Below the pieces are notes generated by a model. That model did not search any database and was not told where the DNA came from. It saw nothing but the letters and a program-made list of their open reading frames with translations. Below, in pieces: positions 11,007 through 26,529 of a DNA stretch of 40,523 nucleotides (position 1 is its first letter; the number at the start of each line of letters is the position of its first letter). A program made the position numbers and the translations under genes. The DNA lies in assembly GCA_022826155.1 (NCBI GenBank), contig JAJDVL010000013.1:1-40523 (forward strand). The letters are read 5' to 3'. The DNA is from Prochlorococcaceae cyanobacterium jk18x22bins.40. GTDB lineage: Bacteria > Cyanobacteriota > Cyanobacteriia > PCC-6307 > Cyanobiaceae.

Positions 11007-11765
11007 TCAGGAAGGGGTCAGTGGATAACAGCGGCCTGGTTCCGGATCCAGTAGTTGGGCCTGGGGGGCGTGGGTCTTGAGCAGGCCCGTTGCCGTGGCC
11101 GTGCTGCCGCGACTCCAGATCAGCCTGGGCAACAGCCCGGAGGTTTGCGTCTGTCCCCCAGCCGTGCTGGCCAGCACCCAGCGGGGCTGAAACCGCTCCA
11201 GCAACCGGGGCAACACAGTTTGCCCCCGCACAAAGGCGCCCACCAGGGGCAGACCAAGATCCACCACAGGCGTGATCACCGCATCCAGCTTCTGGGGCGG
11301 CAGGGTTGGATCCAAAAAGCCGTGGGGCTCGGCGTAGAGGCGACCATCAGGGTGCTGGAGCAGAAAACCGTTCTCCTGCCCCGGCACGGCTGCACCTGCC
11401 GTGGCCGTGATGGTGAGGTGGGCGCCAGCGCCGTTGGCGTGCTGGTGGCTCTGGCCAGGGGCCAGGGCCGTCACCCGGGTAAAGCCCAGCGCGCTGGCCA
11501 CCTGGGCCGCGGCGGTAGAGCCCACCACAGGAATGGAGCGCTCCAGTTTCTTGAGGGTGGGGGGATGGGCATGGTCCGGCAGGCCCTGGGTAAGCAGCAC
11601 CAGATCAACGGCCGGTGGGATGGGCCAGTCTTGCAGGAAGCGGGACTCAAAAAACCAGGGACTGTTGCCAAAGCAAAGCGGCCCCACCAACCAGGGATCC
11701 AGCAGCACGTTCAGATTCGAGAAAACCAACTGCCAGCCGTTGGCGCCAAAATAGGTGGCCCGCAT
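11007..11765 (-). CDS. Metallo-beta-lactamase-fold protein, cyanobacterial/plastid type
   Basis: A 252-residue protein that starts MRATYFGANGWQLVF, followed by LLDPWLVG, the usual N-terminal strand pair of this MBL branch. The metal-site region reads LLTQGLPDHAHPPTLKKL: the DH is kept but the first His positions of HxHxDH are Gln and Leu, so metal binding may be altered. ELAC/RNase Z-type function is not supported. A later GAFVRGQ may be the C-terminal region of the fold. Function unknown. It precedes the phosphohexomutase by 10 bp. A TATACT -10 box lies 19 bp before the start. Confidence 0.72.
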   Translation of the reverse strand: MRATYFGANGWQLVFSNLNVLLDPWLVGPLCFGNSPWFFESRFLQDWPIPPAVDLVLLTQGLPDHAHPPTLKKLERSIPVVGSTAAAQVASALGFTRVTALAPGQSHQHANGAGAHLTITATAGAAVPGQENGFLLQHPDGRLYAEPHGFLDPTLPPQKLDAVITPVVDLGLPLVGAFVRGQTVLPRLLERFQPRWVLASTAGGQTQTSGLLPRLIWSRGSTATATGLLKTHAPQAQLLDPEPGRCYPLTPS

Positions 11766-11783
11766 GTGATGGTCTTGGAGTGA

Positions 11784-11812
11784 AGTATACTCTAGGGGCT
11801 GGCTTCAGTCAG
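11784..11812 (-). promoter_or_regulatory. Probable promoter of the MBL-fold / phosphohexomutase pair
   Basis: On the minus strand TATACT (complement of 11784-11789) is a 5/6 match to the -10 consensus. A weak -35 (CTGACT) lies 17 bases upstream at 11807-11812. A transcript would start near 11777, about 12 bases before ATG 11765. The -35 overlaps the 3' end of the upstream binding-protein gene. Confidence 0.45.
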
Positions 11813-12866
11813 TTGCGGGAATGACGCCCATGGCACGCTTCATAAACACCTGGGGATCAGTACGCCACTCGCTATAGCCAATGCGCCGGTGATCCGTCAG
11901 CCAGTCCAGCTTCTCGCTGAGACAAGCAGCCAGAACCGTGTTGTCATGGTCCAAGGCAAAACCTCCCAACTCCTTGGCGGAATCAAGGATACCAATGGTC
12001 AAACGTCCGCCAGAGTCATAGCTGGCGTCCCTGTTGCCGACTTCACCGCGGGCAACCGCATCAACGGTGCCGTCAGAGACCATGGCCAGTAACTGTAGCT
12101 CATCTGTCCTGTAGATAATCTCCGGCTTGTTATCTGATGGATTGTATAACTTTGTGCGACCAGTGAGAGCTGGACTACTTTGGGATGCCGTGATCATCCA
12201 ATCGTCACTGCCATCTGCAACAAGCAGCCCGCGGGGGGTTTCCACGTGGACGCCCTTGGCCAAACGACCGTTGGGCTGGGCCAATTCCGTGAGCACCAGC
12301 AGGCGGTGCTCGCCTGTGGTTCCCGCCAGGGCGCCAATCCGAACCGTGGCATCCAACCGGTCATAGCTGGAGAACCGCTCCACGTCAGCAGCCCGCACCA
12401 GCAGGGATTGGCGGAAGGTGATATGGCCTGACGTGAAGGTGACCACGGTGTCTCCAGCAGCGCTACGGGTGCGGGAGTCGAGAATTGTGATGCCGCCGCC
12501 AACAATATCAAATTCCGGCTCGGCAGCCCGTAGCCAGATACCAGGCCAGCGTGCAATAGCCCGGCGAGAAAACTGCAGTCCTGCCCCATCCATGGCCTCC
12601 AGAGCATCCAGCAGGTCCGCTTCATAGCCCCGATGCTGATGAAATCCTGGTGAGCCCGGCGTGGGATCAGCGCTATAGCTCACAGGCCGAAAATCAGCAA
12701 AGAAGCCCACATTCAGCACAGTGCCCGGAGGCGCGCAGGGTCGATGGTCTGCAAACACAGGCTGCCACCAGCCCGTATTGACGATCCCCGCCAAGCCCAG
12801 GGCAAGTAATTCAGGCAGAGCACGGTGGAAGCGATGGGTGGCCTGCTGTGGCCGCGTGGGGGCCAT
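11805..12866 (-). CDS. Periplasmic solute-binding protein, family 3 type
   Basis: A 353-residue protein with an N-terminal signal sequence (ALPELLALGLAGIVNTGWW, ending near VFADHRP), so it is probably exported. The mature part follows the bacterial family-3 binding-protein pattern: VLNVGFFADFRPVSY, GYEADLLDALEAMDG, the FDIVGGGITI strand, then TRSAAGDTVVTFTSGHI. Such proteins feed amino-acid ABC transporters, but no permease or ATPase gene is nearby, so it may be an orphan or act with a remote transporter. ATG 12866 was chosen because AGGAA precedes it and it starts the signal peptide; the frame extends to 12923. It borders the distal end of the CRISPR array. Confidence 0.8.
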   Translation of the reverse strand: MAPTRPQQATHRFHRALPELLALGLAGIVNTGWWQPVFADHRPCAPPGTVLNVGFFADFRPVSYSADPTPGSPGFHQHRGYEADLLDALEAMDGAGLQFSRRAIARWPGIWLRAAEPEFDIVGGGITILDSRTRSAAGDTVVTFTSGHITFRQSLLVRAADVERFSSYDRLDATVRIGALAGTTGEHRLLVLTELAQPNGRLAKGVHVETPRGLLVADGSDDWMITASQSSPALTGRTKLYNPSDNKPEIIYRTDELQLLAMVSDGTVDAVARGEVGNRDASYDSGGRLTIGILDSAKELGGFALDHDNTVLAACLSEKLDWLTDHRRIGYSEWRTDPQVFMKRAMGVIPATD

Positions 12867-13001
12867 GGGATTCCTGGAGCGCCAGATCATTGAAGCAAAG
12901 CAGAGGCAACGTCTGCTTGGCAACAGTTACCTTCTACAATCACTTTGTACTTCTGGTTGGCAAGTGGGAAGAAGGCCGGAGGGCATCGTCGCCAGCAATA
13001 A

Positions 13002-15934
13002 GCTTCAATGAGGCCGGGGCAAGAAGCCCCGGATGACTACAGGAAGTCGGGGTCCTCAGGGTCCCAGGGGTCGCTTCAATGAGGCCGGGGCAAGAAGCCC
13101 CGGATGGTCCTTGAGTTCGGTGCCCCCGGCGCGTTCGGGTTCAGGCTTCAATGAGGCCGGGGCAAGAAGCCCCGGATGCTAGAGTGGCCGCAACGATCAA
13201 GCCCCAATGGCCGCACGCTTCAATGAGGCCGGGGCAAGAAGCCCCGGATGACGCGGGATGATCTCCCTGACGTGATGCGGGAGCTCATGCTTCAATGAGG
13301 CCGGGGCAAGAAGCCCCGGATGCATCTCTATCGCCCTCAGCAATGCGCCAGAACGCTTCGCTTCAATGAGGCCGGGGCAAGAAGCCCCGGATGACTGGCG
13401 CCGCGTAATAGGCCTTCAGCAACGTCTGCTGAGCTTCAATGAGGCCGGGGCAAGAAGCCCCGGATGGCTGGCTATACCTGTCGGATCGCCTCCATCCGCA
13501 ACGAGAGCTTCAATGAGGCCGGGGCAAGAAGCCCCGGATGATTCCCTAGCACTTGACCTATGTTAGGTGCATGGGGCGCTTCAATGAGGCCGGGGCAAGA
13601 AGCCCCGGATGATCCACCGCTCGGTTCCCTTTGCCCTGCTTCACCAGGTCGCTTCAATGAGGCCGGGGCAAGAAGCCCCGGACGACTGGCGGCGGGTGCC
13701 GACCCCAATGAGCGTGTGCCACTGCTTCAATGAGGCCGGGGCAAGAAGCCCCGGATGATCGCTCTTTCTCGTGCATATTTTTGAGCATATAAAAGGCTTC
13801 AATGAGGCCGGGGCAAGAAGCCCCGGATGACCAACAGTGAGTCATGGGCAACAGCGCCAACAGCGCGCTTCAATGAGGCCGGGGCAAGAAGCCCCGGATG
13901 ACAAACTCGGTGCTGACGTGAACGCAACCAACACGTTCGCTTCAATGAGGCCGGGGCAAGAAGCCCCGGATGACCTGTTTCGGCACTTGCTCAGGAAGGG
14001 CGCTGACGCGCTTCAATGAGGCCGGGGCAAGAAGCCCCGGATGATTCCGTAGAAGGTTCCGTCGGCGCGTTGGCAGCGGACGCTTCAATGAGGCCGGGGC
14101 AAGAAGCCCCGGATGACCGTGGTTGCCCATGACTCACTGGTCCCAAAGAACCCGCTTCAATGAGGCCGGGGCAAGAAGCCCCGGATGACTGTGAATTCTC
14201 TGTAGGAAGTTTCATAGGTAAAATGAGCTTCAATGAGGCCGGGGCAAGAAGCCCCGGATGACTCTGGCAAAGGAACGCGGTCTCTCCGTCTGCATACGCT
14301 TCAATGAGGCCGGGGCAAGAAGCCCCGGATGACCAGGTGCGTTTGCGGTGTCCAACCCCCGCGCCATCATGCTTCAATGAGGCCGGGGCAAGAAGCCCCG
14401 GATGACACCGGGATCCACGGACTGGGTGACTGTGTCAGGGCGGCTTCAATGAGGCCGGGGCAAGAAGCCCCGGATGACGTTAGCGAGCTGCTCCCTGAGT
14501 CTCGCTGGGTCACGCTTCAATGAGGCCGGGGCAAGAAGCCCCGGATGACGGCGCTGTCAGAGCCCGCAATGATCGTTTCTGTGTAGCTTCAATGAGGCCG
14601 GGGCAAGAAGCCCCGGATGACGGGTTTGCCAGGATGATCCGGACGCCAGGTTGGCAGTGCTTCAATGAGGCCGGGGCAAGAAGCCCCGGATGAGTCGAGA
14701 TGCTCATGGATTGGGCGGCGCGCCGAGGTTGCTTCAATGAGGCCGGGGCAAGAAGCCCCGGATGATACGGGAGGCCTGGTTTAGCCTGTTCCGTTTCAGC
14801 CAGCTTCAATGAGGCCGGGGCAAGAAGCCCCGGATGACACCCACACCTGCCGTGTCGTTCGATCTCGGTGAGCAGCTTCAATGAGGCCGGGGCAAGAAGC
14901 CCCGGATGACTCCTCGGCAGGAAGGGGGTGAGACCCGACGCTCCGAGATGCTTCAATGAGGCCGGGGCAAGAAGCCCCGGATGACACCCAGCTCCTGAAA
15001 ACGTTTCCTGGCTGCGTGCTGCTTCAATGAGGCCGGGGCAAGAAGCCCCGGATGACACGCCCTCGTCACCGGCCCGCAAACCCTGTTCTTCGCTTCAATG
15101 AGGCCGGGGCAAGAAGCCCCGGATGACAAACACCCAGCTTCTGAAAATGGCACCTGGCTGCATGCTGCTTCAATGAGGCCGGGGCAAGAAGCCCCGGATG
15201 ACCGGGACGGATGCGCATAACGCGGCGAACGACCACCTGCTTCAATGAGGCCGGGGCAAGAAGCCCCGGATGACACTTGTTGGCGGCTTGGCCGCTGGTC
15301 TCAATGAGCCGGCTTCAATGAGGCCGGGGCAAGAAGCCCCGGATGACCAAGCGGGGCGTGCTGTCCTGACGGGGCTGATTCCGCGCTTCAATGAGGCCGG
15401 GGCAAGAAGCCCCGGATGACACCTGGCAGCCAGGAGATCTCCGTGACCGAGTGCGTGGAGCTTCAATGAGGCCGGGGCAAGAAGCCCCGGATGACTTCGT
15501 TTGCTGGTGGGTGAGGTCAGGGTGAGGTCAGCTTCAATGAGGCCGGGGCAAGAAGCCCCGGATGACAGCGGCGGTGGACTCGGCCACGGGGACACCTGTG
15601 ATCGCGCTTCAATGAGGCCGGGGCAAGAAGCCCCGGATGACACACGCAGCTACGACTGCGGTCCGAAATGGGTCTCAGCTTCAATGAGGCCGGGGCAAGA
15701 AGCCCCGGATGACTGATCACGACCGCTGCAACTATTGCCACCGGGCAAAAGCTTCAATGAGGCCGGGGCAAGAAGCCCCGGATGACGAGCCAGATCCAGG
15801 AGACTGGGAACGTCCCAACTGTGGCTTCAATGAGGCCGGGGCAAGAAGCCCCGGATGACACTAGGCGCACTACCTGACGACTACCATGGCCCTAGCTCGC
15901 TTCAATGAGGCCGGGGCAAGAAGCCCCGGATGAC
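13002..15934 (-). CRISPR. CRISPR array, 41 repeats and 40 spacers, type I-G
   Basis: Forty-one 36-bp repeats recur every 71-75 bp, the first at 13002-13037 and the last at 15899-15934. Spacers are 35-39 bp. On the minus strand each repeat starts GTCAT, has a 7-bp stem CCGGGGC/GCCCCGG around the loop TTCTT, and ends CCTCATTGAAGC. ATTGAAGC fits the usual 8-base 5' handle of type I crRNAs, so transcription should run on the minus strand, from the cas side leftwards. Repeats on the left (13073, 13145, 13289, 13433, 13507, 13578, 13724) have lost the first two bases GT, and the one at 13651 has an internal change. That is the decay expected at the old, leader-distal end. Repeats near 15.0-15.9 kb are uniform. 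Csb2 is the expected processing nuclease. Confidence 0.98.
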
Positions 15935-16247
15935 ACCCCAGTGTACAGACCCCTGACACCAAGCGCAAGCTCAGCCCAGTTTGCGAGCGGGTCGGATTTC
16001 TCCGTGATCCAGGCTCCCCATTGACCACGGATGAGGCCTGGTCGACCCTCCAAAGCCTCCGCAAAATCAGCAGGTTGGAGCAGTTCGAGCGGCCCTTGGG
16101 CATCTCAAGCTGCCTCACCAGTCGACTTGCCTCGGCAAGGGAAGGGGCGCGCCCCTTGCTTAGGGAAAATGGGCATGGATGCATCAAAAGCCTGATTAGG
16201 CCAGAGAAGAGGGCAGGGAGAAGATAGTTTTTCAAGATCCTCCGGCA
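15935..16247 (-). promoter_or_regulatory. CRISPR leader between cas2 and the first repeat
   Basis: A 313-bp non-coding stretch between the cas2 stop and the youngest repeat. It contains the perfect 16-bp palindrome AAGGGGCGCGCCCCTT (16142-16157). At the repeat-proximal end there is a possible promoter read on the minus strand: TTGCGC (complement of 15963-15968), 17 bases, then TACACT (complement of 15940-15945), which would start transcription at the edge of the first repeat. An open frame runs through part of it (minus strand, 16235 leftwards) but has no ribosome site and enters the array, so I treat it as chance. Unlike many leaders it is not strikingly AT-rich. Confidence 0.65.
16142..16157. 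repeat. Perfect 16-bp palindrome in the CRISPR leader
   Basis: AAGGGGCGCGCCCCTT is its own reverse complement and lies about 208 bp upstream of the first repeat. No T-run follows on either strand, so it does not look like an intrinsic terminator. It could be a dimeric protein-binding site acting in adaptation or array transcription; this is inference. Confidence 0.6.
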
Positions 16248-16541
16248 TCATATCACGATTGCCTGACGTTCGATTGCTGCATAGGTCTTGCCGATGCTGG
16301 TGACAGCAATGTCCGTTTTATCTGCCGGGCCAATGTCGATCACCAGCACATGGTCCTGACCCACTTTGATGAGGTCCCGCAGACGCGCTTCCAGTTCGGC
16401 GCGACGGCGCTTGGATAAACGGCACTGGAACACGGAGAGTTGGAGCCACTCCCCAAAGCCGTTCATGGTCTTGAAGACCCGCCGCCAGCGACGGCTATCG
16501 GCAATGTCGTAGGTGACGATGTAGGTGCGCTCATCGCTCAT
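16248..16541 (-). CDS. cas2: CRISPR adaptation nuclease-fold protein Cas2
   Basis: Cas2 dimerises and bridges two Cas1 dimers in the spacer-integration complex. The 97-residue sequence begins TYIVTYDIADSRRWRRVFKT, the canonical first strand with the conserved Asp, and continues with GEWLQLSVFQCRLS, the second-strand pattern of Cas2. The tail is TYAAIERQAIVI. It starts 12 bp after the cas4-cas1 stop and is the last gene of the cas operon before the leader. Confidence 0.95.
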   Translation of the reverse strand: MSDERTYIVTYDIADSRRWRRVFKTMNGFGEWLQLSVFQCRLSKRRRAELEARLRDLIKVGQDHVLVIDIGPADKTDIAVTSIGKTYAAIERQAIVI

Positions 16542-16553
16542 GGTGGGGCAAGC

Positions 16554-18293
16554 TCATCTGGGTAGATAGTGGGGATAGCTGGGCAACTCTCCCAGGAGAT
16601 GCCGACACAACAACCGGGCTTGCAAAAGGAGTAGTCGGCGCATACTCAGCCGATACCCGAACAATGGATGGGTGGTTTCCTGGGACAGGCGACGCTCGAA
16701 GGCGCCCACAAAACGCCGACGTCCTGTGGTGGTCAGGGAAGTTCCCGTCAGGGCGCTCACGAAGTGCTCCGATGAAATCTCCCCGGTATTCACCACGGCC
16801 AGCACCACGGAATCAGCAATAATCGGACGGAAAGGCTCCATGATGTCCAGCGCCAACGCGGGTTTGCCGTAGCGGGAGGTATGAAGAAAGCCACGATAGG
16901 GATCCAGCCCCACGGTGGCCAGAGCAACCGTCAGGTGACGCGTCAGCATGGCGTAGGCAAGGGACAGCATGGCGTTCACCGGGTCCGTGGGTGGGCGGCG
17001 ATTGCGGGCCTCAAAGCGGAACGACGCCAATTCTTCTTCCACAGCATCCTTTGACTTCTCCTTGCCGGGCGGCGCCAGCAAGTGGGCAAAGGCCCGGAAA
17101 TAGATGGCTGCTGCGTCCCCTTCCACGCCCAGTAGCGCGCTGATGGACGGTGCGGTCTTGGTGGATCTGCGGGCCCCACTGAGCCGGTCCAGCACAATTT
17201 TGCGCTGGTCTCGATCACCACGCCAGTTCCGCCGCACAATGGTGCGTTGATTGATGATCTTGGCGGCCACCAGTTGGCGGGCAAAGCTCAGGCAATGGTT
17301 GACGTCAAAGCTGCGTTGGTACTGGGCTGTGCGCACCTCCACATTGCGGTGTCCCATCCCCTGGGCCATGCCGCGAAACCACCCCCCATGGCTATGAAAC
17401 GCCACAGGGATGTCCCGCTCCATGAGGGCGGTGAGGGCAGGCGTGGTGATGGACACATTGCCAAACAACGCCACGTCGGACACTTCATTGAGCCGCACGG
17501 TGATATTGCCCTGCTCCTCGTCAGCAATTTTGAGGGTCTCCCCGTCCTTGCGGATGCGCGCCCGCTGGGACTGAACAATCAATGGCATGGCTTCGTCCTT
17601 GCCAACGGCGATTGGGCGGGGCGCCAGGTCTGATCCGCTGAGCGCACTCATCTCGTCAGGGAGGCAGATGGACACCAGGGCACAGCGGGGGCATTTGGGG
17701 CTATCCCTCAGCGGGGGCGGGATCCGGCCATAGGCAACCGTCAGGCGCAGCCGACTCACTGCTTCCTGGGCAGCAATGCGCAATTCGTCACTGAGCACGA
17801 CCCGGACCCGCTCGCGGCTCTCCGCATACCAGATGGCGCCTTCTTCCACCTGATAGCCATGCTCCTCCAGCAACAGTGCCTGGAGGCAGACCTGAACCCG
17901 CTCCGGTTCGTAGGCGCCCTGCGCCACGTGGGGACGCTTGCCCCGCTTGTAGTCCACGGGCGTGACCACCCCATCCTCCGCCTCGGCAATGTCAATTTTT
18001 GCAATAACCCCGAGGGTTTGTGAGGAGAGGGTCAGGGAACGGCTCACCACCTTGCTCTCCCGTTCATCCAGTGTTTCCGGATCAGGCAGGGGCGCGTTGG
18101 GACGGTCAACCCGGACATGAACACGCCTCCCATCCACCGTGTCCCCAGTCTCCGCCCATTCGGCCTGGCTCCACATGAGGTAGGCCAGGCGCGGACAATA
18201 CACAAACTCATTCACCATCCGCGCCGGAACCAGCGGATCATTGCCGCTTGTGGCTGATAGGGGGAGGTGGAGCTGGAGTTGAGGGGAAGTCAA
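16554..18293 (-). CDS. cas4-cas1: Cas4-Cas1 fusion, adaptation integrase with PAM-processing nuclease
   Basis: A 579-residue fusion typical of type I-G. Residues 1-215 are Cas4, a RecB-like nuclease that trims prespacers. Cluster cysteines are seen at C33 (EFVYCPRLAYLMW) and C201, C204 and C210 (KCPRCALVSIC), with acidic residues in AKIDIAEAEDG and the VDYKRGKRP motif as the nuclease core. Residues about 236-579 are Cas1, with catalytic E391 (LLGVEGDAAA), H471 (FLHTSRYGKPAL) and the acidic patch ALDIMEPFRP. The start codon is TTG 18293, overlapping the preceding stop as TTGA; ATG 18218 (M26) is a weaker alternative that would remove the Cas4 N-terminus. A partial second copy of its 5' end lies at 25303-25349. 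Confidence 0.93.
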   Translation of the reverse strand: MTSPQLQLHLPLSATSGNDPLVPARMVNEFVYCPRLAYLMWSQAEWAETGDTVDGRRVHVRVDRPNAPLPDPETLDERESKVVSRSLTLSSQTLGVIAKIDIAEAEDGVVTPVDYKRGKRPHVAQGAYEPERVQVCLQALLLEEHGYQVEEGAIWYAESRERVRVVLSDELRIAAQEAVSRLRLTVAYGRIPPPLRDSPKCPRCALVSICLPDEMSALSGSDLAPRPIAVGKDEAMPLIVQSQRARIRKDGETLKIADEEQGNITVRLNEVSDVALFGNVSITTPALTALMERDIPVAFHSHGGWFRGMAQGMGHRNVEVRTAQYQRSFDVNHCLSFARQLVAAKIINQRTIVRRNWRGDRDQRKIVLDRLSGARRSTKTAPSISALLGVEGDAAAIYFRAFAHLLAPPGKEKSKDAVEEELASFRFEARNRRPPTDPVNAMLSLAYAMLTRHLTVALATVGLDPYRGFLHTSRYGKPALALDIMEPFRPIIADSVVLAVVNTGEISSEHFVSALTGTSLTTTGRRRFVGAFERRLSQETTHPLFGYRLSMRRLLLLQARLLCRHLLGELPSYPHYLPR

Positions 18294-19267
18294 GGAGCAG
18301 TTGTCGGCTCCGCTCTCGTGAAGTTCATGAACTTCCCTGCAGAGATTCGCCGAGCCTGCCGAATCTCCTTAACTCCAACAACAGCAAGCTTGTTGTCGGA
18401 TCCCAAGCCAGGATGACCTAGCAACGCTCGTATAGCGGCAAGGCTGATTGGCTCCTGCCAAATCGGCCACCGAAAGACGAAGCCACCACGAGATTCACGC
18501 TGACCACCAAGGACCGCTAATCTCACACCCCCAGCTTGCCGCCTCGGAGTAACGGTTAGGAGTGAAAGTCCGATGGCAGCCAGTCTATTAGCACCATGTT
18601 GTGTCGTTTCTTTTGTCTTGGGATCAGTCGGGTTATGGGCACGCAACGCATAGCGGACATCCTCATTAGGATCCCAGCGAAAGGAAGGCGTTGCGTCGTG
18701 ACGCTTCCAAGACTCAAACAGGGCTTCACGCAGGCAGGCAGTCTCGGAAACAGTGATCTTACTTCGCCTTTTACCACGCTTTGGCGGAGTCCGCTGTTGC
18801 GGAACCGACTTGAGACGTTCCAGGAAATGTTGGTGCCCCTGACCAAACATCAGACAGAGCGGCGTTGGCTCCACTTTCTTGCCGTCGCGGGAGATCGCTG
18901 CATCGCTAACAAGGGCTGCCCATAGATCAGCGGTGTATCGGTCTCGGTCCGCAGATTTTAGGATTTCATGTAGCTTTCTGGCTGCGTCCTCGGGAGGGAG
19001 CGTCAAATCAACAAGCCCGCCAAACTCGTGGTATTGCGCCAAAAGGTCAAGTCCCTCAACAACAGCATGGGCGATGGTGTCGCTATCAACCCCTTCCGGC
19101 ACGCGCAAGGCCGGTCGAAGGGGTGGCTTATCGACTGTCCAAGAGACACGGGAATGCCACTTCGGCCTCACCTCCTCAAGAGTTCGCAGCAGACCCAGCA
19201 ACGCCATAAAGGCAAGCAAGTTGTCCGGCTCCAGTCCTTCAAGCCGGTGGGTTACGTAGCTGGTCAT
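18290..19267 (-). CDS. csb3: Type I-G Cascade subunit in the Csb3/Cas8u2 position
   Basis: A 325-residue protein encoded between cas3 and cas4-cas1, the slot taken by csb3 in operons ordered csb1-csb2-cas3-csb3-cas4/1-cas2. The N-terminus reads LEGLEPDNLLAFMALLGLLR, a pattern common in type I-U/I-G subunits of the Csx17/Cas8 or 'Cas3-extension' kind. No catalytic motif is visible. The rest includes a basic central part (PPKRGKRRSKITVS) and a FRWDPNEDVRYALRA segment. At 325 residues it is much shorter than Csx17-type Cas8 subunits (about 700). Role by position: PAM recognition or Cas3 recruitment in Cascade. ATG 19267 overlaps the cas3 stop by 4 bp. Confidence 0.68.
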   Translation of the reverse strand: MTSYVTHRLEGLEPDNLLAFMALLGLLRTLEEVRPKWHSRVSWTVDKPPLRPALRVPEGVDSDTIAHAVVEGLDLLAQYHEFGGLVDLTLPPEDAARKLHEILKSADRDRYTADLWAALVSDAAISRDGKKVEPTPLCLMFGQGHQHFLERLKSVPQQRTPPKRGKRRSKITVSETACLREALFESWKRHDATPSFRWDPNEDVRYALRAHNPTDPKTKETTQHGANRLAAIGLSLLTVTPRRQAGGVRLAVLGGQRESRGGFVFRWPIWQEPISLAAIRALLGHPGLGSDNKLAVVGVKEIRQARRISAGKFMNFTRAEPTTAP

Positions 19268-22212
19268 GGTTGATGACGCTCCTCCTCTGAGGCCCGATGG
19301 TCTGCAAGCCGCAAGATGGCCTCCAAATGGGCCAAGCCCCAGATACCATAGCGCCGCTTCAGGTCTTCAAATAGAGAAGACCAGTCGGCTTCTTCAAAGT
19401 CAAAGGCCAGAGATTGTGGCCCTACTTCATCAGAGGGCAATTGCCATTGGTCCATCTCAAGGCAGGGTAGCGGCTTCAATTCTGGATCTGGATCACGGAA
19501 GTTAAAAAAGGGCCGGCCAAAACCATGGTGAGTCCCGATGAGCCAAAGAACAAGGCCAGGGTCATTCGCCTCAGCTAAGCGCGGATGCAGGCGCGCCATC
19601 CGCACCGACAACGCCTCATGCCGCCAGCCCTTGGGAAGGCCAGCCTGCTCCCAGGCTCGTAATGATCGAGAAGATCGTCTCCCACCCTTAGCTAGGGGTG
19701 GCCCGTCAGGGCGATTCCACCAGTCACCACCCGCAAGCATGACCTGAAAGCGCGGATCGGCCTTGCCAGCATCGTGCAAATAGGCAGCCAAGCCGAGATC
19801 ATCTGCTTCCTTGAGACCAAGAGTCTGGGCAAAGCCCTTGGCGAAGCGCTCCACTCTGTGCCCATGGGCATCAAGGGGCACTGGTGTATTGGATGTCTGG
19901 GAAGCTGCATCGTCCTCAGTTGCAGGGCTGGCCATCGAGGAGTCAACATTCTGCACATGCGCCTTAGTCCGAATCCCCTGCTCAGCAACAAGAATAGCGC
20001 CTCCTTGATGACGGTTGGCATAAGGAAAATGACAGTCAATTTTGCTCCCCGTTTGACCTTTGGCAGAGCGAAGGTCTCGCAGCGCTTCCCGCACGTCGCG
20101 AGGCTTTAGATTAGTATCGTTTTCGTTTTCTCCTGTTTCTGGTGGCAGTGCTGTAAGGAGGCCCTCAATCAAATCCGAACCACTAACACCTTCTGCAGCA
20201 AGCAGGTTTGATAACCGTTCCCACTGAGCATCCGTGCGCACCACATCGCGGGTAATGCGAATAGCACAGCGCCGCCCCCAATAGGGCCTTGCAGCCTCAT
20301 CAGCGACATCTACAACGGGATCATCACAATCTGACGCCCAGCCAAATTTGTCACAACCGCCATACTGTGCAGGAACAACCAGGAAATCACCTGTGCGCAG
20401 ATCACTCGCGCTGACCACACAAGTATCTGGATCATCAGGACCAGCCCAACGGAAGGCTTTACGCTTTGTGGTCCCTTGACCATGTGCTGTGTCATTGGTT
20501 TCCGCTTCACGTTCAGGTGCGTCAGATGGGTCACAAGGATTTTCCGATTGACTTAGCCACGCACGCGCAACCCAGAGTGGCACTTCAATGGCTTCAGCCG
20601 CCCGTGGTGGGACCAGTTCCATGATCTTGATTAGGTCAACGCTGCTGTTCTCTTCAAGGTCCGTTTTAGAAACGTCACCCCTCCAGACGATGGACACTCC
20701 TACTGTCGTCTGCTCACTCCCATGGAGAAACAAGCTGACCTCCGGATCCGCAGTTGGCCGTGGCCATGTTTGGGACCAAAGATGAAGATAGGCAGGCATG
20801 AGTACTGGAGCATCTGGCTGCTTGGTAGAAAGGGTATCTGGGTCGATACCTTTATCCTTCAGTTTCTCAGACAAAGCTTCCACCCCAAAATCCACTGTTT
20901 TGTCCTCATCAGCAATGTGTTGAAGTGCTTCCCAGGTGCAGCGGATGCGGTCACCATACACTGGATCATCAGCTTTGTTGGCAATATCCTTAGCAAGAGC
21001 AAATATGGCACCTTCAGCAGCAATGGGCCGCCCAGCACGGTTCAGCCGTCCAAAGCGTTGACGGACAGCATCCAGCGATGCAGCCTGAGTCACGAGGCCA
21101 TCCAAATCCAGATCCACACCCACCTCCAGGCACTGGGTAGCAACCACAAAGAGCGGTTTAGCCTGACCCCTTCCTTCTGCACCAGTATGGAAGGGAGCCA
21201 GTGCTTTGACAATCCCATCTCTATCTATGTTGCGTGACCGGCCAATTAGTAGGATGGCATTGGCCAGACTATTCTTGTTCAAGGATGTGAAGATGTCTCG
21301 CGCTAGTGCAATACGATTGACAATAACGCCTATAGCAGAAGAAGTGACACCTTGTTGTTGTAGACGCTTCATCATGGCACAAGCCTCTACTATGAATGCA
21401 TCAGCAGTATTCTTTGTATCACCGCCTGGAAGCGGTTTTTTGAGCACGGCCGGTTTGCTTGCCGTAAGCCTGGTTTTCAAGGTGGGATGGGTTCGGTCTT
21501 CTGGAGACAGATTGAATGGTCGTGTTGCCTTCTTCCCTGGCGTAGCAGATAAGAGCGCCAGCTTAACTTGGGCTTTTCCAATGTTGCACACACCATCAAG
21601 CGTTTGCCGAAAGGGTTCAGAGATATGGGCTTCGTCCAGCAAGATCAGGCTGTTGACTCCAAGCAGGCCCCCATGGACTGGCTTCATGCGGTCAGACACA
21701 CCATAGCCACGAAACAACAAGCGTGAGCCCACCTGATCCACCGTAGAGCAAAGGATAGTGGGTTGCGTGGGTGTACGCGCCCAGTCGTGCTCTAAGGGGA
21801 CGCCACCGCGAAGCCGTTGCACAACCAGTGGCGGCCCATCACCTGCCAAGTGATGTAGGCGTTTAGCTACTACCTGGACAACCCTGCATTCATCCGTTTT
21901 GTCTGCCAGGCTGTCGCGAAGCTTTTGAGCAATCTTCTCTGCCCGGGTAAAGGCATCGTCCACCACAAGCCGCCGATCCACCACAAGGGCAATCCGCAAA
22001 GCGGCTTTCCCCGGTTCATCAGCACTCAACGCCAGATGAAATACAGCTACATCCAGAGCCGCAGTCTTTCCTGATCCAGTCGGCAATTCCAGGACATCCG
22101 GCCATGTGTCGGTATCTGCAAGCTTATTGACCAGAGCCTGCTGCCAAGGAAATGGATCATACCCATGTACGGCATGAAAGAAACCACCAAAGTCAGTTGC
22201 AGAAAGGTTCAT
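19264..22212 (-). CDS. cas3: Cas3 helicase-nuclease with C-terminal HD domain
   Basis: The effector that unwinds and degrades DNA bound by Cascade. A superfamily 2 helicase comes first: ELPTGSGKTAALD (Walker A, residues 42-54), LILLDEAHISEP (DEAH, residues 193-196), GVDLDLDGLVTQ and RQRFGRLNRAGR (motif VI). The HD nuclease is C-terminal: LGLAAYLHDAGKADPRF at about residues 805-822, with further metal-site histidines in WRHEALS and GTHHGFGRP. The helicase-then-HD order is characteristic of type I-G; most type I Cas3 proteins have HD first. I place the start at ATG 22212 (AGGGG about 8 bases upstream, 2-bp gap from csb2) rather than 22236, which would overlap csb2. About 982 residues. Confidence 0.95.
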   Translation of the reverse strand: MNLSATDFGGFFHAVHGYDPFPWQQALVNKLADTDTWPDVLELPTGSGKTAALDVAVFHLALSADEPGKAALRIALVVDRRLVVDDAFTRAEKIAQKLRDSLADKTDECRVVQVVAKRLHHLAGDGPPLVVQRLRGGVPLEHDWARTPTQPTILCSTVDQVGSRLLFRGYGVSDRMKPVHGGLLGVNSLILLDEAHISEPFRQTLDGVCNIGKAQVKLALLSATPGKKATRPFNLSPEDRTHPTLKTRLTASKPAVLKKPLPGGDTKNTADAFIVEACAMMKRLQQQGVTSSAIGVIVNRIALARDIFTSLNKNSLANAILLIGRSRNIDRDGIVKALAPFHTGAEGRGQAKPLFVVATQCLEVGVDLDLDGLVTQAASLDAVRQRFGRLNRAGRPIAAEGAIFALAKDIANKADDPVYGDRIRCTWEALQHIADEDKTVDFGVEALSEKLKDKGIDPDTLSTKQPDAPVLMPAYLHLWSQTWPRPTADPEVSLFLHGSEQTTVGVSIVWRGDVSKTDLEENSSVDLIKIMELVPPRAAEAIEVPLWVARAWLSQSENPCDPSDAPEREAETNDTAHGQGTTKRKAFRWAGPDDPDTCVVSASDLRTGDFLVVPAQYGGCDKFGWASDCDDPVVDVADEAARPYWGRRCAIRITRDVVRTDAQWERLSNLLAAEGVSGSDLIEGLLTALPPETGENENDTNLKPRDVREALRDLRSAKGQTGSKIDCHFPYANRHQGGAILVAEQGIRTKAHVQNVDSSMASPATEDDAASQTSNTPVPLDAHGHRVERFAKGFAQTLGLKEADDLGLAAYLHDAGKADPRFQVMLAGGDWWNRPDGPPLAKGGRRSSRSLRAWEQAGLPKGWRHEALSVRMARLHPRLAEANDPGLVLWLIGTHHGFGRPFFNFRDPDPELKPLPCLEMDQWQLPSDEVGPQSLAFDFEEADWSSLFEDLKRRYGIWGLAHLEAILRLADHRASEEERHQP

Positions 22213-22214
22213 AC

Positions 22215-23660
22215 TCAATCCCCTATCCTGCGACAAAGGCCAAGCCCAGTAAATCGTCCTGCGCCTAGAAGGACAGGGCCAGGTACCTGTTCTTCGAAGT
22301 CAATGATGGCATGGGTCAATTGCCGAGCCTTCAGCAACCTTGGCAATTTCCATTTGGTCCAGGGCGGTTCACCTGTCAAGGGGCGGGCAGGGGGTGCGCC
22401 TTCAATGGCTGAATGCTTGCCGATCCAGATTCGTTCAGGGTTTGGACGGGGCAGTCCTGAATGTTCGCAACTGTTGGCAACAAGCTCTTGGATCTCCGCA
22501 TCATGGTTCTTCTTCAGATAGCGTTCCAGGACGATAGGGGTTACGGTGGCCCAGCGGGACGATGTCTTCAAATAAGGATCAGACGAGAGAGACCGCTTGC
22601 TCTCTTCAGTAGCGGGGGAAAGACGTAGCGGCCTGCGCAGAGGTGATCCCTGCAAGGTCAGAACGCGCCTTTGCTTCTCAGGGTCATAATGGGCAACCGT
22701 TTCCCAGGCGGTGCGGAATCCGTCAATACAGTGCAGAGACTCCCCACGCGGCGGAACCAACGCGAAACCGAAGACGCGGCCATCTGCATGGGGCCAGCCC
22801 ACGAAGGCCATGGGCACAACAGCCAGATGGGGATTCCGTGTTGGCATACCGTCAGGGGTATGGCCAGAAACCACCTCAGGAATGGCGTCTCTCTGATCTG
22901 AACGACGGTAGCCGCACATTAAGGCTTGCCGCAAAAGACGGCAGATGAGTGCTGAAGCACGGATATCAGGAACCTCGCCCCCAATAGCCTCTAGAATCAG
23001 CCATGTGTTCGGGGAGCCAGATTCTGATAAGTTGTTCTGAGAGGAAAACGCCCAGCCAGACCTGATGACGGGACGCTCGGGTCGAGCGTGATATGCCGCC
23101 TCCAACTCACACAATCGTCCGGGATAGACCCACCGCCGGGCTGGCGTCAATTTTTGCTCAGACTGTCTGGCGGCATCATCAACCAGGAAGCGGCACCGTA
23201 CTAAGCTAGCCGAATGGCCGATATATCCTACGCAGTGGGCAAGTACATTCAAGGCGTCCAGAACCTTGGCCTCCGGCGCAACATCCTGCCAGGCCAACTC
23301 CATGGTTGGATCATCTGGCAAGGCGACAGGAAACTGGCGGGGCTGGCGCGGACGATGATCCGGCATCACACGGATGTATGTCTTCTCAGCATTTGACGCC
23401 TTGGGATCATTCACTGGCACGTACACATCAGGAGCAGTTCTGGCGCTGTACCCACTGGCCTGGATCATTGGGGGCAGTTGTCCTTCCAGCCACTGCAGCG
23501 CAGCGCGTTCCTCAGGAGCTTCACCCCGGACTCCCCAGGCTGATACCAATGCCGAGAATACGCGGTCGGGCTGTGGAGGCCAGTCCGGCTCATCATCACT
23601 TGGTCCGCGAGCTGCACGGCACACGCCAGTGAGGAACTCAATTTCGAGGATGAGTTTCAT
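22215..23660 (-). CDS. csb2: Csb2, fused Cas5/Cas6-like Cascade subunit (GSU0054 family)
   Basis: Csb2 is the signature of type I-G; it caps the crRNA end (Cas5 role) and cleaves pre-crRNA (Cas6 role). The 481-residue protein begins MKLILEIEFLTGVCRAA, followed by WPPQPDRVFSALVSAWG, the typical Csb2 N-terminal RAMP-like region. It ends with GPVLLGAGRFTGLGLCRRI, a glycine-rich loop typical of RAMP proteins. H-rich segments (ALNVLAHCVGYIGHSASLVR) lie near residue 150 and could hold catalytic histidines, but I cannot assign them. ATG 23660 overlaps the csb1 stop by 4 bp (ATGA). Confidence 0.9.
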   Translation of the reverse strand: MKLILEIEFLTGVCRAARGPSDDEPDWPPQPDRVFSALVSAWGVRGEAPEERAALQWLEGQLPPMIQASGYSARTAPDVYVPVNDPKASNAEKTYIRVMPDHRPRQPRQFPVALPDDPTMELAWQDVAPEAKVLDALNVLAHCVGYIGHSASLVRCRFLVDDAARQSEQKLTPARRWVYPGRLCELEAAYHARPERPVIRSGWAFSSQNNLSESGSPNTWLILEAIGGEVPDIRASALICRLLRQALMCGYRRSDQRDAIPEVVSGHTPDGMPTRNPHLAVVPMAFVGWPHADGRVFGFALVPPRGESLHCIDGFRTAWETVAHYDPEKQRRVLTLQGSPLRRPLRLSPATEESKRSLSSDPYLKTSSRWATVTPIVLERYLKKNHDAEIQELVANSCEHSGLPRPNPERIWIGKHSAIEGAPPARPLTGEPPWTKWKLPRLLKARQLTHAIIDFEEQVPGPVLLGAGRFTGLGLCRRIGD

Positions 23661-24904
23661 TGGCCTTTCTCGTCTTCTCCGCCTTCGCCTTCCAACGCCA
23701 ATTGGCGACTCCGGCGAATAATCTCAACCAACTTGTCCTGTGGTTTGAGCGTAAGCGAGCGAAAGTCAAAGCCTGCTTGTTCAGCTTGTGCATAGGCTTC
23801 CTGGTAGAGCGCCCTAGCTGAGGCGCGATCAAACTGGACCTTCTCTCTGGAGCCATCCCAATGTACCAGTTCAAGCGGCGCGACGCCTTCACAAACCAGA
23901 TCACAGCGAGAGCGTAAGGCATAGCCACAAGCATCCTGCTCAGCCATGGCCAGAAGGCCAAGGGATACGATCAGTGCTCTGCCAGCGACATCCTTCTCCC
24001 CGCCTCCAAAACGTAATCGTCTGATTCCTGCAAGGGTAATTGTGACCCGGTGCTCTGCATAGTCACAGGTCACGCCAAGGGGCTCAATAGTAGGGGCAAT
24101 GTTACTGTGGTTGATTTCTGAAGGACGGACCTTCTTTGCTCTTTTGCCTGCTGACTTCTGGTCAGTACTCCAACCTGAGGCTCCCTTGAAGACCTCCACT
24201 TTCCGGAGAGTGCCCAACGGATCAATGCGACTACCAGTGCGTCGACCGGCAGTTTGAATGCGCAACTCTCCGGTGCGCCGATCAACCAGGGTCTTTTCCA
24301 CTGGCACATTGATGCCCATGATTTCAGAAACAAGGGTGCGTGGGAACTTGGCCCCCAGACCACCGCCACCTCCCTGGCTGTGCCAAGCCCCAAACACAAG
24401 CGCCGTAGGGGAGATTTCCAGCAATGCTGTGGCGTCGGCAGGCTTTGCTGTTGCCAGGCTGCGGCCTTCATCACTCTCCATGAAAGGCTTTGTGTCCAGC
24501 AGGCTGTCCCTCAAGATGGCGTCATAGACACGGTGTGGCGCATCAAGGGAGGTGATTCTCTGCAAGGGCTCCAAGTCTCTGCCTGCAAAATCCACGGTGA
24601 TATGGGGAATGGGCACCGGACTATCTCCACTCTCTTGGTTGGTCAAGGTCAGAAGCGCCTCTTCCAACCGATTGGCTTGACTCTGAACACTGTCGATCAG
24701 GACACACCAGATCTCCTCACCCCCAATGCGCCGCCGCTCGAATACATGGCGTGGCGATGTGCCTCGTGGAGCATTTGGTTCGGGTGGGTAGGTAGGCGGG
24801 AAGATCTTGTCCCCTTGTCCCCCAACCGGCTGAAGCCTCCTGATGCGGCGGAAGGCAGCACCCTGGCTGACCGCATCCCTCAGATCTGAAAATTCGATTG
24901 TCAT
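23657..24904 (-). CDS. csb1: Csb1, Cas7-type backbone subunit of type I-G Cascade (GSU0053 family)
   Basis: Csb1 forms the helical backbone that holds the crRNA spacer. The 415-residue protein shows family features: GGQGDKIFPPTYPPE near residue 28, RIGGEEIWCVLIDSVQSQAN, then VFGAWHSQGGGGGLGAKFPR, a glycine-rich loop about mid-protein, and GRRTGSRIDPLG. It is the first gene of the operon csb1-csb2-cas3-csb3-cas4/1-cas2. The 5' leader is very short if the -10 at 24922-24927 is used. Its base composition is more AT-rich than the core genes around it, in line with acquisition by transfer. Confidence 0.9.
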   Translation of the reverse strand: MTIEFSDLRDAVSQGAAFRRIRRLQPVGGQGDKIFPPTYPPEPNAPRGTSPRHVFERRRIGGEEIWCVLIDSVQSQANRLEEALLTLTNQESGDSPVPIPHITVDFAGRDLEPLQRITSLDAPHRVYDAILRDSLLDTKPFMESDEGRSLATAKPADATALLEISPTALVFGAWHSQGGGGGLGAKFPRTLVSEIMGINVPVEKTLVDRRTGELRIQTAGRRTGSRIDPLGTLRKVEVFKGASGWSTDQKSAGKRAKKVRPSEINHSNIAPTIEPLGVTCDYAEHRVTITLAGIRRLRFGGGEKDVAGRALIVSLGLLAMAEQDACGYALRSRCDLVCEGVAPLELVHWDGSREKVQFDRASARALYQEAYAQAEQAGFDFRSLTLKPQDKLVEIIRRSRQLALEGEGGEDEKGQ

Positions 24905-24921
24905 GCCTTGCAGGGAACCAA

Positions 24922-24927
24922 ATTTTA
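24922..24927 (-). promoter_or_regulatory. Possible -10 box of the cas operon
   Basis: On the minus strand TAAAAT (complement of 24922-24927) lies 17 bases before ATG 24904 and matches the -10 consensus in 5 of 6 positions. No convincing -35 is present at 16-18 bases, which is common in cyanobacteria but weakens the call. TTGACG occurs further upstream at a distance too great for a classical promoter. Confidence 0.3.
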
Positions 24928-25163
24928 CAGTAAGCGTGCCTGAGGCCCTGAGAAAGCCTGGAAACCCGTCAACAGGTCCAGTCTGGTCCCAACCGTAGCT
25001 TCCAACAAGGCTTTCAAGTCGTTCAGTTGGGCCAAGGGAGTTCCAAAACCTCCACGCTGCCTTGGTTGGATATTCTGCTGCGTGTCGGTGCAGCGCCCTT
25101 CCCCGCAGGCCATTGGGACTACACTGTTGCGTTTAGAGGAAGGAAGGGACCAATTCCACGGCC

Positions 25164-25283
25164 ATGGAGGGCGAGCCAGTGGATGAGGCCTGGATTCGGC
25201 AACGCCTTGCCCGTCGGATTCGGACACGACTCATCCGCATTGCTCAGCCACCCGCCCCGCCAAAACCCGAGGAGCCTTCCTGA
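25164..25283 (+). CDS. Possible 39-residue basic small protein
   Basis: ATG 25164 opens a short frame ending at TGA 25283. The peptide has a charged amphipathic part, DEAWIRQRLARRIRTRLIRI, followed by a Pro-rich end (AQPPAPPKPEEPS). That composition reads more like real protein than chance, and it resembles the tail of a nucleic-acid-binding or scaffold protein. A purine-rich run AGGAAGGGA lies about 14 bases upstream, too far for an ideal ribosome site. It overlaps the cas4 relic antisense. It could be a genuine small protein, a gene remnant, or spurious. Confidence 0.25.
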   Translation: MEGEPVDEAWIRQRLARRIRTRLIRIAQPPAPPKPEEPS

Positions 25284-25357
25284 GAGACCAGGATTTTGAA
25301 CCGGCGCGGGCAATACACAAACTCATTCACCATCCGCGCCAGGACCAGCATGGGCAT
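25244..25357 (-). pseudogene. Truncated second cas4 5' end
   Basis: A 37-codon frame starting ATG 25357 encodes MPMLVLARMVNEFVYCPRR and then runs into unrelated sequence (FKILVSQEGSSGFGGAGG) and a stop. The part ARMVNEFVYCPR, including the first Fe-S cysteine, is identical to residues 25-36 of the intact Cas4-Cas1. At DNA level 25303-25349 matches 18188-18234 in 44 of 47 bases. The rest of Cas4 and all of Cas1 are missing. It is therefore a relic of another cas4 or cas4-cas1 copy, on the same strand, directly upstream of the surviving operon. Confidence 0.75.
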
Positions 25358-25443
25358 CCGACCCTGTCCATGCCACCCCATGCAGGGCGGAGCCACAGCC
25401 ACAGATTGTGGGAAGTCTCTAGCATGGGAGACCCAATCACCCC

Positions 25444-26064
25444 ATGACCTCCGACACCCCGTCAATGAGTCCCGAGACGCAGGCCCAGGCTCCAGCCACA
25501 GCGGCGCCAAGCAGAACCAATTCTAACCGCCGCCCATGGCTGGAGCCTGCCGTGGTGGTGGCGGTGATTGGTGTGGCGGTGACCATCTTTGGTTTATTGC
25601 TGTCCATCGTTTTCGGGATTTACAGTATGAACAACCACATTGACGCCCTTGGCTCCGAACTCAAAGCTGATATTCGAGACCTCAACAACCGCATGGATAC
25701 CCTTAGCTCCGACTTCAATACCCGGAGTGATGCTCTTGGTTCCGACTTCAACACTCGGATTGACGCCCTTGGCTCCGAACTCAAAGCTGATATTCGAGAC
25801 CTCAACAACCGTATGGATACCCTTGGCTCCGACTTCAACACCCGGATCGACGTCCTTGGCTCCGAACTCAAGGCTGATATTCGAGACCTCAACAACCGCA
25901 TGGATACCCTTGGCTCCGACTTCAACACCCGGATTGACGCCCTTAGCTCCGAACTCAAGGCTGATGTTCGAGACCTCAATGCCCGGATTGACGCCCTTGG
26001 CTCCGACTTCAACGTTCGCATTGAGCAGGTGTACCAACTCCTCTTGGGTACCACGGAAAACTGA
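25444..26064 (+). CDS. Membrane-anchored coiled-coil protein with tandem repeats
   Basis: A 206-residue protein of unknown function. Residues 1-34 are a polar Pro/Ala/Thr-rich tail ending in basic NRRPW. Residues 35-60 form one transmembrane helix (AVVVAVIGVAVTIFGLLLSI). The remainder is a long coiled coil of four 29-residue units (IDALGSELKAD, IRDLNNR, MDTLGSDFNTR; an 11-7-11 hendecad/heptad pattern) plus one extra 11-residue unit. The basic flank before the helix predicts N-terminus inside and coiled coil outside the cytoplasm. It is divergent from the cas operon. Such architecture suits a structural or scaffold role; a CRISPR role is not supported beyond proximity. Confidence 0.75.
   Translation: MTSDTPSMSPETQAQAPATAAPSRTNSNRRPWLEPAVVVAVIGVAVTIFGLLLSIVFGIYSMNNHIDALGSELKADIRDLNNRMDTLSSDFNTRSDALGSDFNTRIDALGSELKADIRDLNNRMDTLGSDFNTRIDVLGSELKADIRDLNNRMDTLGSDFNTRIDALSSELKADVRDLNARIDALGSDFNVRIEQVYQLLLGTTEN
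25639..26019 (+). repeat. Four 87-bp tandem coding repeats plus one 33-bp partial unit
   Basis: Units lie at 25639-25725, 25759-25845, 25846-25932 and 25933-26019, with a 33-bp partial unit at 25726-25758. Units 2 and 3 are almost identical at DNA level, including synonymous sites, so the array arose by recent duplication or is kept uniform by recombination. Repeat number is expected to vary between strains. Confidence 0.85.
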
Positions 26065-26529
26065 TTTTCTCATGGTGTGAGGGCATCCCATAGCGTAGGC
26101 ACGGCATGGCCAATGCAGCGTGGAGGCAGGTTCTGGCTGATGGCCCGGCTTCCTCCGCAATTCCGGCAAGCCGGTCCGGCGTTTGGCGCAGGGCCGCCAG
26201 AAAACGGGGGCGCCACCAATGGACCGTGCTGGGTGCAATGGCGGGCCCATATACACCCCGGATAGATCCTCATAACGGCTTCGTCAACACCAAGACAACG
26301 CCTTTTCTTCAATGGTGAAGCCTCTTGGCACCATAAGACTCATGCGCGGTTTTGGGAAAACGAAGACACCCAGCGGACCTCATACCAGCGCTCTGTTGGG
26401 GGCACCATGGGAGCAAGCCTCCAAAACCAGAGACATCATAACAGCCGTGGGACGCATCCCCCATCCCATGCTTTCGTAAAGGACCCACGGCTTGCTACGA
26501 TCAGATGTGTTTGCCAGCGGATGCGAGCC
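26065..26529. other. 465-bp intergenic region upstream of pyrH
   Basis: No convincing gene. Several short frames occur on both strands; on the minus strand one reads [18 protein letters not shown] and another GGAPVFWRPCAKRRTGLPEL, fragments in different frames that might be debris of a decayed gene or IS, but I cannot match them to a family. The final part should contain the pyrH promoter; I could not pick out clear hexamers. Confidence 0.4.

Follow-up and report, generated by a model that had tools for sequence, protein, structure and literature searches.

We analysed a 40,523-bp stretch of DNA (the window), which is contig C27 of a 2.0-Mb genome in 51 contigs, alongside the other members of a sample of ten genomes of its cyanobacterial genus. 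On its minus strand the window has a complete type I-G CRISPR-Cas locus, consisting of csb1, csb2, cas3g, a gene for a Cas3-extension protein, a cas4-cas1 fusion (hereafter cas4-1), cas2 and a CRISPR array (Table 1). The Cas4g/Cas1g fusion, Csb1, Csb2 and Cas3g all score above the curated cut-offs. Two spacers of the array contain an 18-base exact match in opposite orientation (13835-13852 and 14122-14139). To the right of the operon is an open reading frame for a coiled-coil repeat protein, built of tandem units of 33, 54 and 87 bp, with several paralogues in the genomes of the genus.

The locus lies in a CRISPR hotspot (11805-26481) between genes at 11007-12923 and a gene that we take from its protein to be pyrH. 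On the left, DNA similarity within the genus ends at 11766-11805 in five relatives and at 12915 in G004. On the right it picks up at 26481-26484, just before pyrH, in the seven other genomes whose pyrH contigs were compared (G002, G003, G004, G005, G006, G008 and G009); pyrH itself is matched in eight of the ten genomes, G000 included. The hotspot holds a type I-G system in the window and probably in G003, and a different type I cas3 with a CRISPR-like repeat tract in G004.

Table 1. Features of the type I-G locus and of the relics beside it (positions in the window).
Feature	Positions	Strand	Basis or remark
CRISPR array, 41 repeats of 36 bp, spacers 35-39 bp	13002-15934	-	repeat analysis
cas2	16248-16541	-	TIGR01573
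cas4-cas1 fusion	16554-18293	-	NF049935, above cut-off
Stretch inside intact cas4-cas1 that matches the relic	18188-18234	-	direct repeat
Cas3-extension family protein of type I-G	18290-19267	-	NF049934
cas3g	19264-22236	-	TIGR02621
csb2 (cas5-6g)	22215-23660	-	TIGR02165
csb1 (cas7g)	23657-24904	-	TIGR02570
csb1 upstream region	24905-25149		no match in other loci compared; left join at ~25149
Relic, C-terminal half of antitoxin-like gene and ~15 bases of fic start	25150-25298	+	82% to G003:C129:21093-21241
Join, fic start / cas4-1 relic	25284-25302	+	alignments; breakpoint between 25299 and 25303
Relic, 5' coding part of a second cas4-cas1 (ARMVNEFVYCPR)	25303-25349	-	44/47 to own cas4-1, 45/47 to G003, 42/47 to G001
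Join, cas4-1 relic / upstream region of coiled-coil gene	25350-25375		similarity to region upstream of coiled-coil paralogue (G003 C139) starts at 25376
Coiled-coil repeat ORF	25444-26064	+	relatives come after antitoxin-like gene in G004 and G007

An earlier note, made from the letters of the window alone, had reported that a short stretch upstream of the cas operon repeats the 5' end of cas4-cas1. A repeat search of the window bears this out: the two stretches form a two-copy direct repeat, 94% identical, with copies 7,115 bases apart. Searched against the whole genome of 2.0 Mb, the fragment has no other match than cas4-1 (E = 4.7e-14), which rules out a chance match. Both copies encode ARMVNEFVYCPR in the cas4-1 reading frame, so that the reported identity of the protein part holds as well. 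The abrupt end of similarity was recovered on both sides, and blastn against the better-matching cas4-1 allele of G003 again returns exactly 25303-25349. The fragment thus has significant DNA homology to part of a gene only, abrupt ends and no intact frame. Judged by its sequence, it is a real and statistically secure relic (pseudogene fragment), ordinary in kind.

The closest named relative of the window's cas4-1 is that of G003, a sister species (locus L070 on contig C129; L034 repeats the same locus), and the G003 allele matches the fragment slightly better than the resident gene does. The fragment differs from resident cas4-1 at three sites, at two of which it agrees with G003; it differs from G003 at two, and one base, in these 47 nt, is its own. 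For comparison, the resident and G003 genes agree overall at 1604 of 1737 positions (92.3%), and 44 or more matches are reached in 66% of the 47-nt windows along them. This is suggestive, at this length too short for a firm allele tree, of a third allele about as far from resident cas4-1 as the sister-species allele.

The bases to the left of the fragment are a relic too. The antitoxin-like coding sequence, which contains NSTAMEGEPVDEAWIR, ends with a stop codon at 25281-25283; its N-terminal half is missing, and an in-frame stop codon lies directly upstream. The alignment to G003 continues for about 15 bases beyond the antitoxin stop, into fic, and there the cas4-1 piece starts, such that the block 25150-25349 reads antitoxin (+), fic start (+), cas4-1 5' end (-). 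In G003 the aligned sequence codes for the C-terminal half of a protein of 77 residues and then takes in the opening bases of a frame with a Fic domain. Class I Fic antitoxins are marked by the motif [S/T]xxxE[G/N], which the segment SMAMEG of the G003 protein resembles.

This neighbour bears on the open frame that covers the fragment. The earlier note had described an ATG of its own and a distinct N-terminus, MPMLVL. The frame exists, 37 codons long (25244-25357, minus strand) and contained in a longer frame of 88 codons (25244-25510, minus strand), but its tail is no remnant of cas4-1: to the left of 25303 it is the antisense of the 3' end of the plus-strand antitoxin/fic relic. The ATG and the differing N-terminal residues are therefore incidental. 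Despite the ATG-started open frame, it is scarcely credible that either frame encodes a functional small protein, and we rejected this reading on account of the antisense tail. Neither frame matches an NCBIfam or Pfam family, and neither is conserved among 300 genomes of the family, each of a different species. The earlier note had named conservation as a small protein across strains as grounds against a relic; across species, the nine other genomes of the genus contain no second copy of the fragment. Among the 300 family genomes, the 47-base stretch is matched over its length in three: the window's own, G003 and G001, the last two in cas4-1 itself only. Partial matches over 27-39 bases, all of them weak (E about 4e-4 to 8e-4), occur in three of the 300. 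A 38-base pattern of the fragment had no match among the viral contigs searched, and 25100-25600 had none among plasmids.

The window and G003 share a closely related adaptation module next to different effector operons. Cas4-1 and Cas2 are each 95% identical in protein sequence, and DNA similarity ends at the start of cas4-1 (18287 in the window). Beyond this point the G003 operon runs divergently and encodes a different Cas3g, Csx17 and Csb1; the order is cas4-1 (-), cas3 (+), antitoxin (+), fic (+), the intact antitoxin-fic pair being placed between cas3g and cas8g1/csx17. The array, cas2, cas4-1, cas3, antitoxin, fic, csx17 and csb1 all lie on C129, which stops just past csb1. On another G003 contig, C47, the C-terminal part of Csb2 (TIGR02165, 65.8 bits against a cut-off of 45) adjoins pyrH and a gene whose protein we read as ParA. 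C129 and C47 are very probably neighbours. Because its csb2 end adjoins ParA and pyrH, the G003 effector operon apparently occupies the same pyrH-linked hotspot as that of the window.

The G003 locus has further peculiarities. The open frame of its cas3g extends without a break into a Fic domain (residues 1030-1129; 10233-13766 of L070), crossing an overlapping small antitoxin-like gene in another frame between cas3 and csx17; this could represent read-through from Cas3 to Fic, or else a toxin-antitoxin pair embedded in the operon. Its array (5786-7735 of L070) has two repeat registers, with the period constant at about 73. On the trailer side most repeats read GTATCC...CTCATTGAAGC, the 11 repeats closest to cas2 read GGCGGGGTATCC...CTCAT, slid by about 6 bases, and one repeat bears both ends. 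It seems that acquisition shifted its cut sites and left the repeat length unchanged. Our literature search found nothing relevant on shifts of repeat register and nothing on Fic inside type I-G/I-U operons. With antitoxin-fic inside the cas operon and an array in two registers, the sister locus is a more unusual object than the scar.

Comparison of the layouts of the window, L070, L009 (G001) and 29 further loci (L035-L063) revealed repeated exchange of effector modules around cas4-1 and cas2; L034 was omitted as a repeat of L070, and L064-L069 as remote Cas1 matches. The same cas4-1/cas2 pair is accompanied by effector operons of at least two kinds, placed codirectionally, divergently or downstream. 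Operons of the window's type, in the same direction and with proteins of at least 45% identity, occur in L035, L036, L042, L050 and, within the genus, G001, whose csb1 is split into two frames, perhaps by a frameshift (L009, 5674-6929). Csx17-type operons in several orientations occur in L040, L044, L047, L052 and L061. Since the window's type is a common companion of cas4-1, the G003 effector operon is more likely the newcomer at this place. A phylum-wide search for cas4g_cas1g found 2 of 386 genomes above cut-off and did not widen the comparison. A near-identical adaptation module beside different effector operons in relatives is what in-situ replacement leaves, and effector genes swapped in situ with retention of the cas4 and adaptation genes, also within subtypes, have been described in the part of the literature available to us (PMC5704561), with a further precedent in the corresponding part of PMC6452270.

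On these comparisons, 25150-25349 is best read as a junction between two pieces of an I-G locus similar to that of G003, next to an effector operon that is intact and different. We think it probable that the fragment is a scar with no function, in which the 5' end of a second cas4-cas1 from a lost I-G segment survives. In the hotspot before pyrH, that segment would once have stood immediately upstream of the present effector operon, on its right, and the scar would have arisen while effector modules were exchanged in situ around a fixed cas4-1, cas2 and array. A plain deletion from the G003 layout fails as an explanation, because antitoxin-fic is on the right of cas4-1 in G003 but on its left in the scar. 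One deletion could produce the block if a csx17-type operon with antitoxin-fic stood to the left of cas2-cas4-1 (-), as in a layout like that of L061, which reads, when reversed, cas3-csx17-csb1 (+) / cas2-cas4-1 (-). Two systems in tandem could be an alternative source, and either layout would put a second cas4-1 to the right of the present effector operon. Both relic pieces would then derive from one lost segment, ordered for example cas3-antitoxin-fic-csx17-csb1-csb2 (+) / array-cas2-cas4-1 (-). We infer that one deletion removed everything from the fic start to codon ~35 of cas4-1, and that additional deletions trimmed both outer sides. The earlier note's proposal of a second-cas4 relic marking a deletion or exchange junction gains support from the apparent third allele, the adjoining antitoxin/fic relic and the shuffled effector operons. 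Against a lost segment stand the lack of a genome with both systems in tandem among the nine other genus genomes and the lack of antitoxin and fic in L061, whose type of layout would be needed in place of a tandem.

The antitoxin relic could also be a resident, independent of any cas operon. An antitoxin-like gene is intact in G004 and broken in G007 and G009, in all three without fic. In G004 and G007 the gene order is type I cas3, antitoxin-like gene, coiled-coil gene and ParA (again as read from the protein; for this cas3 the best full-length model is PRK09694, with a score below that model's cut-off). The window has the antitoxin relic, the cas4-1 piece and the coiled-coil gene in succession. 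It is conceivable, if unlikely, that repair filled a break with about 47 bases of resident cas4-1 while fic was deleted beside the coiled-coil gene, and that no second cas4-1 ever stood at this place. Such a templated duplication would suit the small size of the piece, its two abrupt ends, its position right where the broken fic ends, the same antitoxin-coiled-coil order in G004 and G007, both without I-G, and the failure to find a tandem system in the nine other genus genomes. However, the piece does not look like a recent copy, given that two of its three differences from resident cas4-1 agree with G003, and the direct repeat flanking it is weak, with 8 of 9 bases matching, a result that 7 of 100 shuffled sequences also gave. 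With no clearer target-site duplication than this, ectopic insertion by Cas1-Cas2 and transposition were rejected. A misjoin of the loci of two strains is quite improbable: the metagenome-assembled genome is fragmented, and repeats and strain mixtures can cause misjoins, but such an artefact would not typically show three separate small pieces within 200 bp, nor divergence from all known copies.

If the fragment is the remnant of a lost I-G segment, it might more specifically be the footprint of a tandem intermediate, through which effector modules were swapped with cas4-1, cas2 and the array retained. We regard this as distinctly unlikely. A second I-G segment would enter next to the first, the cas4-1 genes of both pointing the same way, and these two copies would act as direct repeats bracketing an effector operon. 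Recombination between them would give the sister-type locus, and loss of the newcomer would give the scar of the window. An intermediate with two cas4-1 copies, required by this mechanism only, was not found in the nine other genus genomes. Nor did the comparison with related genomes that the earlier note had proposed reveal an intact tandem second system in these nine, as far as their contigs reach; in several of them contigs break at the hotspot. No extra copy of the cas4-1 5' end was found in 36 cas4-1/Cas1 loci (L034-L069), several of which end too early to cover the far side of the effector operon. The scan returned just short or low-complexity matches, a 41-base repeat in L053 of the region upstream of cas4-1 and not of its coding part, and CRISPR repeats in L051, where the cas4-1 5' end is absent.

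The complementarity of the fragment to cas4-1 (44/47), its position upstream of the cas operon and an 8-bp stem formed by its plus strand, better than in shuffled sequences (z -2.6), would suit a regulatory element, either a crRNA-like (CreR-type) RNA or an antisense RNA repressing cas4-1. We consider this very improbable. The stem is inherited, as the inverted repeat is already present within the cas4-1 coding sequence (18188-18234). No CRISPR-repeat-like sequence adjoins the fragment (shuffle p 0.17 and 0.95), and its 47 bp exceed the 35-39 bp of the array's spacers; the absence of repeat similarity and the wrong length leave a spacer or crRNA-like element unsupported. There is no promoter-like or terminator-like match in 24800-25600, no Rfam family above its gathering score, and no second copy in the nine other genus genomes or the 36 cas4-1/Cas1 loci. 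Among the matches listed in a comparison of the 40 spacers with the window, none to 18188-18234 or 25303-25349 extends beyond about 12 bases.

Most likely, the scar records gene exchange at a CRISPR hotspot and has no function for the cell. It is nevertheless one copy of a 47-bp direct repeat, the other being in cas4-1, with the effector operon between them, and recombination between the two copies would excise the whole operon and place cas4-1 in frame after a new ATG. The G003 locus did not arise by such a recombination, as its cas4-1 retains the normal N-terminus and not that of the relic. Exchange of effectors around a fixed adaptation module is already known from gene comparisons, and its recombination steps are seldom visible. 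The 5' end of cas4-1 beyond the effector operon is a trace at the nucleotide level that would fit a tandem intermediate, and through the scar that mechanism becomes open to testing in populations of the genus.

The intact operon of the window satisfies the curated models of type I-G systems (Cas4g/Cas1g, Csb1, Csb2 and Cas3g), whereas the fragment covers merely about 15 codons of Cas4g/Cas1g. It is like CreR and CreA, as far as the available part of PMC12737573 describes them, in being a short sequence linked to cas genes that resembles a site in the cas locus. It differs from them in matching the cas4-1 coding sequence rather than a cas promoter, in not being conserved and in lacking repeat-like flanks; the combination of a CRISPR-repeat-like flank and a spacer-sized guide is not present in the fragment. 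The nearest parallel lies in the in-situ replacements of PMC5704561, with which the window shares a related cas4-1/cas2 pair next to different effector operons of the same subtype, probably at a shared syntenic place. The available part of that paper contains no such scar, whereas here the 5' end of a second cas4-1 persists beyond the effector operon together with a toxin-antitoxin relic.
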